45,789 nt of DNA from Candidatus Abyssobacteria bacterium SURF_5. Its GTDB lineage: Bacteria > Abyssobacteria > SURF-5. This document shows positions 18,528 to 20,008 of this stretch, in pieces (positions within the stretch are counted from its first letter, which is position 1; the number at the start of each line of letters is the position of its first letter). Under the pieces are notes generated by a model. It was given only the letters and a program-made list of their open reading frames with translations, did no database searches and was not told the DNA's origin. The position numbers and the translations under genes were made by a program. Where the stretch lies: contig QZKU01000038.1 of NCBI GenBank assembly GCA_003598085.1, forward strand, positions 1 through 45,789, given 5' to 3'.

Positions 18528-19358
18528 TTACGGCTTCTCAGCCCGAACCTTTACGCTGACCACTGCACTGGCGACTTTCTGGACGTCCTCGAATGAGGCG
18601 CCCAGCGCATCGACCATGGCCTTTACAGTGGGGTCTCCAAGAAGGAGGTCGGCTCCGAAACCCGCCTCGCCCACAACCGAAACGTCCTTGAATCCGGCAT
18701 CCCGTATCGCCTGCAGATAGTCCTCCTTCAACGAGGCGCCCGCCACACACCCGACGTACGCGTCGATCGATTCCTTCACAAAATCCGGAAGCTCCTCGAG
18801 CAGAACGATGTCCGATACCATCAGGCGGCCGCCGGGCTTGAGCACCCTGAAGGTCTCGCTGAACACCTGCGGCTTGTTCGGGGAAAGGTTGATGACGCAA
18901 TTGGAGATAATCACGTCCACCGCGTTGTCCGCCACCGGCAGGTGCTCGATCTCGCCCAACCTGAACTCGACGTTGCCGAAGTTGTCTTCTGCTGCGTTCT
19001 TTCGCGCCTTGTCGAGCATCTCCGGAGTCATGTCCACTCCAATGACCTTTCCGGCGGAACCGACCTTTTTCGCTGCGAGAAAGCAGTCGAATCCCGCGCC
19101 CGAACCGAGATCAAGGACAACGTCCCCCTCCTTGAGAGAGGCCAGCGCAACCGGATTCCCGCAGCCGAGACCCAAATTTGCCCCTTCAGGGACCGACGAA
19201 AGGTCCTCGTCTGTATACCCGATCGCCTTGCTCACAACTTCGGCCTTGCTCGCGCTTCCGCAGCACGAGGCGGCGGGCGCACAGCAGGAACCGGAACTTT
19301 CTTTCACTCTTCCTGCATAGCGATCCCGCACCGTTTTTCGAATTTCTTCTTCTTTCAT
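18528..19358 (-). CDS. arsM: Arsenite methyltransferase ArsM
   Basis: A 276-residue SAM-dependent enzyme that methylates As(III). The N-terminal Cys-rich stretch is [15 protein letters not shown], followed by the ArsM signature region [20 protein letters not shown] and the SAM loop [12 protein letters not shown]. The conserved arsenic-binding cysteines are in SNCVINLSP and YVGCVAGA. The start is ATG 19358, with GAGGAGCG just upstream. It is the second gene after a Cys-rich AbrB-like regulator (12 nt gap) and should share that gene's operator-overlapped promoter. No arsR, arsB or acr3 is in the window. Confidence 0.95.
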
Positions 19359-19370
19359 TTTGCGCTCCTC

Positions 19371-19655
19371 TCATTCCTGCATGATTTCGTTCATCATCGG
19401 GCCGAGCATACCTTTCACCGTATCCGCGAATGAGTCGGCCTTCACCAAAGCAATACAGCAGACAGAGCCTTCATTTTCGAAAGCGACCACAGCCAACTTG
19501 TCGCCGGGGTGTATGTGGGCCCGCTCGCGCAAGTCTTTCGGAAGCACGATCTGGCCGCGCGCATCGATCGGGATGAGCGCCTCGACTTTGCAGCACGCGG
19601 CGTTTCGTTCTGCCGCCTGGGGTCCGCAGCATCCTTGCGCCAGTTTCCGTTTCAC
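19371..19655 (-). CDS. Cys-rich AbrB/MazE/SpoVT-domain protein, HgcAB-associated type
   Basis: A 94-residue protein. A swapped-hairpin AbrB-like domain (VEALIPIDARGQIVLPKDLR, then GDKLAVVAFEN) is flanked by cysteine pairs: CCGPQAAERNAACC before it and VCCIAL after it. The C-terminus ends in KGMLGPMMNEIMQE. From memory, this resembles a family that databases call HgcAB-associated and that also occurs beside arsM. The doublet cysteines suggest a thiophilic metal(loid) ligand, so it may be the sensor-repressor of this two-gene operon. That role is inference. The start is GTG 19655 behind GGAGGTG. Confidence 0.8.
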   Translation of the reverse strand: MKRKLAQGCCGPQAAERNAACCKVEALIPIDARGQIVLPKDLRERAHIHPGDKLAVVAFENEGSVCCIALVKADSFADTVKGMLGPMMNEIMQE

Positions 19656-19696
19656 CTGACCACCTCCCGTTTTAGCTAAATCAGTGCAATCAGTAC

Positions 19697-19741
19697 ATTC
19701 TGATTAATCAGAATTATACCACCCCCACCGCCGCCTGTCAA
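19697..19741 (-). promoter_or_regulatory. Consensus promoter with overlapping operator for abrB-like/arsM
   Basis: On the minus strand, a perfect TTGACA (19736-19741), a 17-bp spacer and a perfect TATAAT (19713-19718) preceded by TGG (extended -10). An 18-bp perfect palindrome, ATTCTGATTAATCAGAAT (19697-19714), overlaps the end of the -10 and is centred at the expected +1. Two further ACTGATT words follow downstream towards the gene. This is a very strong promoter that must be repressed by something binding the palindrome. Confidence 0.85.
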
Positions 19742-20008
19742 GAGGGCGTTCGCTTTTTTCCCAAACTTCGGCGTTTTATCCTGCATACGGGTGGGGCTTT
19801 TTCGGTCTGGGCACCCCCCAAGGCACGCGTCCCTTGCTCTCGCCGGCCATCCTGCATCTGGTTTACGGCCTCGGATTAGGTATCTTTCTGAATATTCTCT
19901 CAAAATTCTGAAGCGTCTGAGATCAGCGAGGGGGAGAAGAGGAGGGGCATGCGCCCACGTACTATGTCCCCAATTGAAGTCTTTTGCTGCAGCTGATACC
20001 ATAGCATT
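19742..20008. other. Intergenic spacer between arsM operon and HAD gene
   Basis: No gene is supported here. A TTGAAG (19974-19979), a 17-bp spacer and TACCAT (19997-20002) immediately precede the HAD start codon. That would place transcription initiation at the ATG itself. Nothing else is recognised. Confidence 0.4.

Follow-up and report, generated by a model that had tools for sequence, protein, structure and literature searches.

A 9-bp-spaced box array at the core promoters of hgcC-led arsenic- and mercury-methylation operons in bacteria and archaea

Introduction

A putative regulator gene is located directly upstream of hgcAB in 112 genomes, according to the accessible part of PMC7438021. 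The available portion of PMC10349881 assigns the putative regulator upstream of hgcAB to the AbrB/PrlF/MazE proteins and proposes a link to toxin-antitoxin systems. As far as the accessible sections of the two papers describe them, these regulators are likely HgcC, the family represented by NCBIfam model NF040962 ('HgcAB-associated protein HgcC', curated cut-off 70 bits). The same sections contain no description of an operator for the hgcAB-linked regulator, and open-licence papers searched for a regulator of this kind alongside arsM or hgcA yielded nothing further. MazE-type proteins autoregulate by means of operators at their own -10 elements (PMC9477884). In some bacteria, ArsR is the regulator of hgcAB and hence of methylmercury production.

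Here, we describe an array of short boxes that precedes hgcC in arsenic- and mercury-methylation operons of bacteria and archaea. Relative to the open-licence papers searched, the candidate operator itself, its sharing between the two kinds of operon, and its use on both bacterial and archaeal promoters are new.

Results

Promoter and probable operator array of the hgcC-arsM operon

The window is the whole analysed stretch of 45,789 nucleotides from Candidatus Abyssobacteria bacterium SURF_5. It contains the following features:

19713..19741, minus strand: sigma-70 promoter TTGACA-N17-TATAAT with extended -10 (TG); exact consensus, 12 of 12 hexamer bases
19697..19714, no strand: perfect 18-bp palindrome ATTCTGATTAATCAGAAT, corresponding to operator boxes 1 and 2; sequence search
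19681..19712, minus strand: operator array of four WCWGA boxes starting at 19712, 19703, 19694 and 19685, with 9-bp spacing; pattern search
19371..19655, minus strand: hgcC, AbrB/MazE-type regulator of 94 aa with a GTG start; NF040962 112 bits (cut-off 70), PF04014 above cut-off
18528..19358, minus strand: arsM, encoding arsenite methyltransferase and lying second in the operon, 12 bp behind hgcC; NF008823 356 bits (cut-off 263)
19898..19920, plus strand: possible second, weaker three-box array, one mismatch from the pattern, about 90 bp ahead of a divergent HAD-family gene (20009, plus strand); tentative

The promoter is a consensus sigma-70 promoter with an extended -10, as the initial annotation had claimed. 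Its exact hexamers and spacer occur once in the window, and two sites are found with at most one mismatch, compared with 0.03 expected. The palindrome is centred at 19705.5, 7–8 bp downstream of the -10 element, which is the usual position of the transcription start, and its earlier placement on the predicted start site is thus borne out. It is single in the window even when three mismatches are allowed (expected 0.00), and an exact match to its 16-bp core occurs nowhere else in the 5.1-Mb genome. Shuffled sequences, this uniqueness and the conservation across two domains of life rule out a chance palindrome.

The palindrome makes up the initial half of an extended element, TCTGATTAA|TCAGAATGT|ACTGATTGC|ACTGATTTA, built from boxes of the form [T/A]C[A/T]GA. 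The four-box array occurs in exact form once in the window, with 0.01 expected at up to two mismatches, and is the sole exact match to the three-box pattern in the whole genome (5.1 Mb). When only archaeal sites are used to train a weight matrix, the palindrome scores highest of all positions in the window with 27.1 bits, the next site reaching 15.0 bits.

The HgcC protein and its gene neighborhood

The AbrB/MazE DNA-binding domain of HgcC is recognized above cut-off by both PF04014 and TIGR01439, and the best sequence matches in the PDB are AbrB-family and SpoVT chains. A Foldseek search with the AlphaFold monomer model (pLDDT 80) retrieved no AbrB structure and no significant fold match, and the predicted AbrB-type fold, a swapped-hairpin dimer, therefore relies on sequence profiles. 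The closest named relative found is from Candidatus Abyssobacteria SURF_17, the HgcC of which is 67% identical. In the alignment, HgcC contains one Cys-Cys pair near the N-terminus and one in the C-terminal half.

Despite the family name, hgcC of the window adjoins arsM, not hgcAB. Full-length hgcA was not found in the genome of the window, where the best hgcA-like match is partial (28% identity, 56 bits). Because arsM is a commoner neighbor than hgcA among the sampled hgcC loci, the membership of the gene in the HgcC family rests on its sequence and not on adjacency to hgcAB. A search for ArsR (PF01022) gave no match on the contig of the window, in agreement with the initial annotation, which had noted no ArsR gene nearby; the eight PF01022 matches of the genome are all located on other contigs.

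Conservation of the array at hgcC loci

Loci of hgcC were gathered from named genomes, from relatives, from 247 archaeal genomes of the phylum containing L046 (a Methanomicrobiales genome), and from 301 bacterial genomes of the phylum containing L050 (a Dehalococcoidia genome). Sixty-five non-redundant upstream regions were kept, 44 archaeal and 21 bacterial. The pattern TCWGA-N4-TCWGA, at nine or more of ten matching positions, is present in 52 of the 65 regions, compared with about 1.9 in shuffled sequences. Spacings from 5 to 15 other than 9 are at or near background. Self-similarity of the upstream regions, computed without reference to a motif, peaks sharply at lag 9 (z of 17.7 in archaea and 15.2 in bacteria), and z is at most about 3 at other lags. 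The initial annotation had named the lack of the palindrome in front of arsM in relatives as a refutation; the comparison favored its reading wherever hgcC precedes arsM.

About one fifth of the regions lack a clear array. These belong mostly to termite-gut Bathyarchaeia and to a divergent archaeal subgroup that has neither arsM nor hgcA. In the termite-gut Bathyarchaeia, a group picked after inspection, the boxes have drifted to TCCTA or TCTTA and the 9-bp spacing is kept. Simple inheritance of flanking DNA is an unlikely source of the array, since the 9-bp spacing is constant while the number of boxes, their central base and their phase relative to the -10 element vary by lineage.

The second Cys-Cys pair of HgcC is found in approximately 60 of the 65 sequences and is absent from the three copies linked to nitroreductase genes.

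Linkage of the array to hgcC

The gene following hgcC is arsM in 42 of the 65 loci, hgcA in 12, an Fe-S nitroreductase gene in three, and none of these in eight. In the hgcA-type loci, hgcB accompanies hgcA where the contig extends far enough, and in example loci curated models verified the two proteins as HgcA and HgcB. The array stands in front of hgcC in all three named types of locus, those with arsM, with hgcA and with the Fe-S nitroreductase gene, and hgcC is therefore the common factor.

At arsM and hgcA loci without hgcC the array is nearly always missing. Thirty archaeal arsM loci were compared, 24 without hgcC directly upstream and six with it. Only one of the 24 has a match of at least nine of ten positions within 250 bp, and one more has a match within 600 bp. 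All six loci with hgcC reach this score within 600 bp, including the upstream region of hgcC itself. The sister genome G001 contains both arrangements: its hgcAB genes, behind an ArsR-family gene, lack the array, and its hgcC-arsM locus has it. The array is also absent from the second hgcA-like locus of the sister genome and from a stand-alone hgcA in genome G043.

An ArsR operator was rejected as the identity of the array, since the array goes with hgcC rather than with arsM or ArsR. The initial annotation had hinted at a missing ArsR; the element instead tracks the gene of the AbrB-like HgcC. The operon encodes its own putative regulator, HgcC, which explains the apparent gap.

Position of the array relative to promoters

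A sigma-70 promoter is recognizable in all 21 bacterial hgcC loci, and its -35 element is exactly TTGACA in 19. The best three boxes in the bacterial loci lie over, or directly next to, the spacer, the -10 element or the start site, in a phase that differs among lineages. In archaeal hgcC loci the array lies beside a TATA-like box. By a post hoc count, the best TATA-like box of 22 among 34 cases starts 18, 27 or 36 bp past the first array box and so keeps the 9-bp phase. The conserved site overlaps the core promoter of hgcC, a layout shared with the operators of MazE-type autoregulated genes. The initial annotation had described the promoter of the window as tightly repressed and inducible. 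That the promoter is regulated is well supported by the operator conserved at core promoters in two domains; tightness and inducibility are suggested by the geometry and the conserved cysteines.

Other sites and a possible wider regulon

The weaker array at 19898–19920 may place the divergent HAD-family gene under the same control as hgcC-arsM. The genome contains a second hgcC copy (locus L025, G000:C136, approximately 15.7 kb), which lacks the second Cys-Cys pair and precedes a 4Fe-4S/nitroreductase gene. Its box pair TCAGAAAATTCTGA immediately follows a TTGACA-17-TATGAT promoter. Both sister genomes hold copies similar to this second hgcC (L024 and L026). In sister genome G001, a further promoter, TTGACA-17-TATACT, carries a box array (L035, 2813–2845) approximately 1 kb upstream of hgcC and precedes a gene for a 4Fe-4S protein. 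This site likely extends the HgcC regulon.

Three-box matches with at most one mismatch occur in 35 of the 247 archaeal genomes and lie directly upstream of hgcC in 19 of the 35. The remaining matches outnumber those of a reversed-pattern control (three genomes), and several of those inspected are inside reading frames. Some near-consensus arrays in archaeal genomes are not close to hgcC, which counts against the array being an HgcC operator. One of them (L154, G265:C2:58971) is upstream of a gene with an OMP-decarboxylase/RraA domain; the archaeal genome in question has four such arrays, with hgcC elsewhere, and possibly a larger regulon.

A wider regulon in the genome of the window was rejected, as the 16-bp core at up to two mismatches has two other sites only, both within open reading frames. 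Other three-box matches of this genome are mostly GC-rich 9-bp repeats. Those at C42:46681, C128:192025 and C144:17480 (L150, L151 and L152) have a 9-bp period of the TCAGACAGG TCAGACAAG TCGGA type and look like minisatellites, not HgcC sites.

Discussion

The array is very probably the operator by which HgcC controls its own promoter and thereby arsM, probably by repression and probably with relief by a thiol-binding metal(loid). HgcC dimers would line up next to each other on the TCWGA boxes at their 9-bp spacing, over the -10 element and the start site. The bound dimers would block RNA polymerase at their own strong promoter, and hence also the expression of arsM. Contact of arsenite, methylarsenite or mercury with the conserved Cys-Cys pairs would cause HgcC to leave the DNA and switch methylation on. 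The strong promoter, the position of the operator on the -10 element and start site, and the place of the regulator gene as the first in the operon speak for a self-repressing switch. A thiol-reactive inducer fits the arsM- and hgcAB-linked HgcC proteins, because the second Cys-Cys pair is conserved there and absent in the nitroreductase-linked copies. We infer the binding of HgcC, its action as a repressor rather than an activator, and the inducer from these features. We also lean, with much less assurance, towards a broader reading: a single module of HgcC and its 9-bp TCWGA array, kept across bacteria and archaea on sigma-70 and TATA promoters, may be a thiol-sensing switch for anaerobic arsenic and mercury methylation.

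The most serious alternative is that HgcC binds the array as an activator or a redox-state switch instead of a repressor that metal(loid)s relieve. Besides the start site, the array of several lineages occupies positions between the -35 and -10 elements or upstream of the TATA box, and Fe-S proteins are among the regulon members. Near-consensus bacterial promoters should not need activation, however, and the boxes overlap the -10 element or start site in the window and in most other loci; we regard such a role as unlikely, though worth keeping in view. It is improbable that the array serves as operator for some other regulator of methylation operons, for example an ArsR family protein encoded elsewhere. 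The genome has eight ArsR-type proteins, and the available part of PMC10349881 reports that ArsR controls hgcAB in Pseudodesulfovibrio mercurii ND132, but 23 of the 24 arsM loci without hgcC lack the array, as does hgcAB located behind an ArsR gene, and many bacterial and archaeal lineages would need to have a single unlinked regulator in common.

HgcC might also be the antitoxin of a toxin-antitoxin module, with the array as its operator. HgcC resembles MazE, PrlF and AbrB, a toxin-antitoxin link was proposed for the archaeal hgcAB-linked gene (PMC10349881, available part), and MazE operators sit on the -10 element (PMC9477884). We give this reading very little credence, as no toxin gene lies beside hgcC of the window, the neighbors of which are arsM and the divergent HAD-family gene, and arsM or hgcA is next to hgcC in 54 of the 65 loci.

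The preferred reading, autorepression by HgcC, supplies an exact DNA target, a candidate regulator gene next to it, and a logic common to mercury and arsenic methylation. The control of both processes becomes open to direct test, for which a single purified protein and a 32-bp duplex suffice, and HgcC-controlled operons become predictable in metagenomes from DNA alone.

The gene of the window scores well above the curated HgcC cut-off and, as with the described hgcAB-linked regulators, is followed by a gene for metal(loid) methylation. It differs in having arsM as its partner, in a genome without full-length hgcA. The locus shares with ArsR/SmtB-controlled ars and hgcAB operons a regulator gene beside a methylation or resistance gene and the proposed metal(loid)-relieved repression. 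HgcC, however, belongs to an unrelated family, its candidate operator is different, and no ArsR gene is present at the locus. The MazE-type autoregulated systems, such as Escherichia coli mazEF and Mycobacterium tuberculosis MazEF6 (PMC9477884), likewise encode a small DNA-binding protein of the MazE/AbrB type, assigned here by profile, with an operator at the -10 element of its own promoter, which is a prediction for HgcC. In contrast to those systems, the hgcC locus has no toxin, carries a 9-bp TCWGA array, and includes a methyltransferase in the operon, and the putative HgcC site occurs on sigma-70 promoters as well as on the TATA promoters of archaea.
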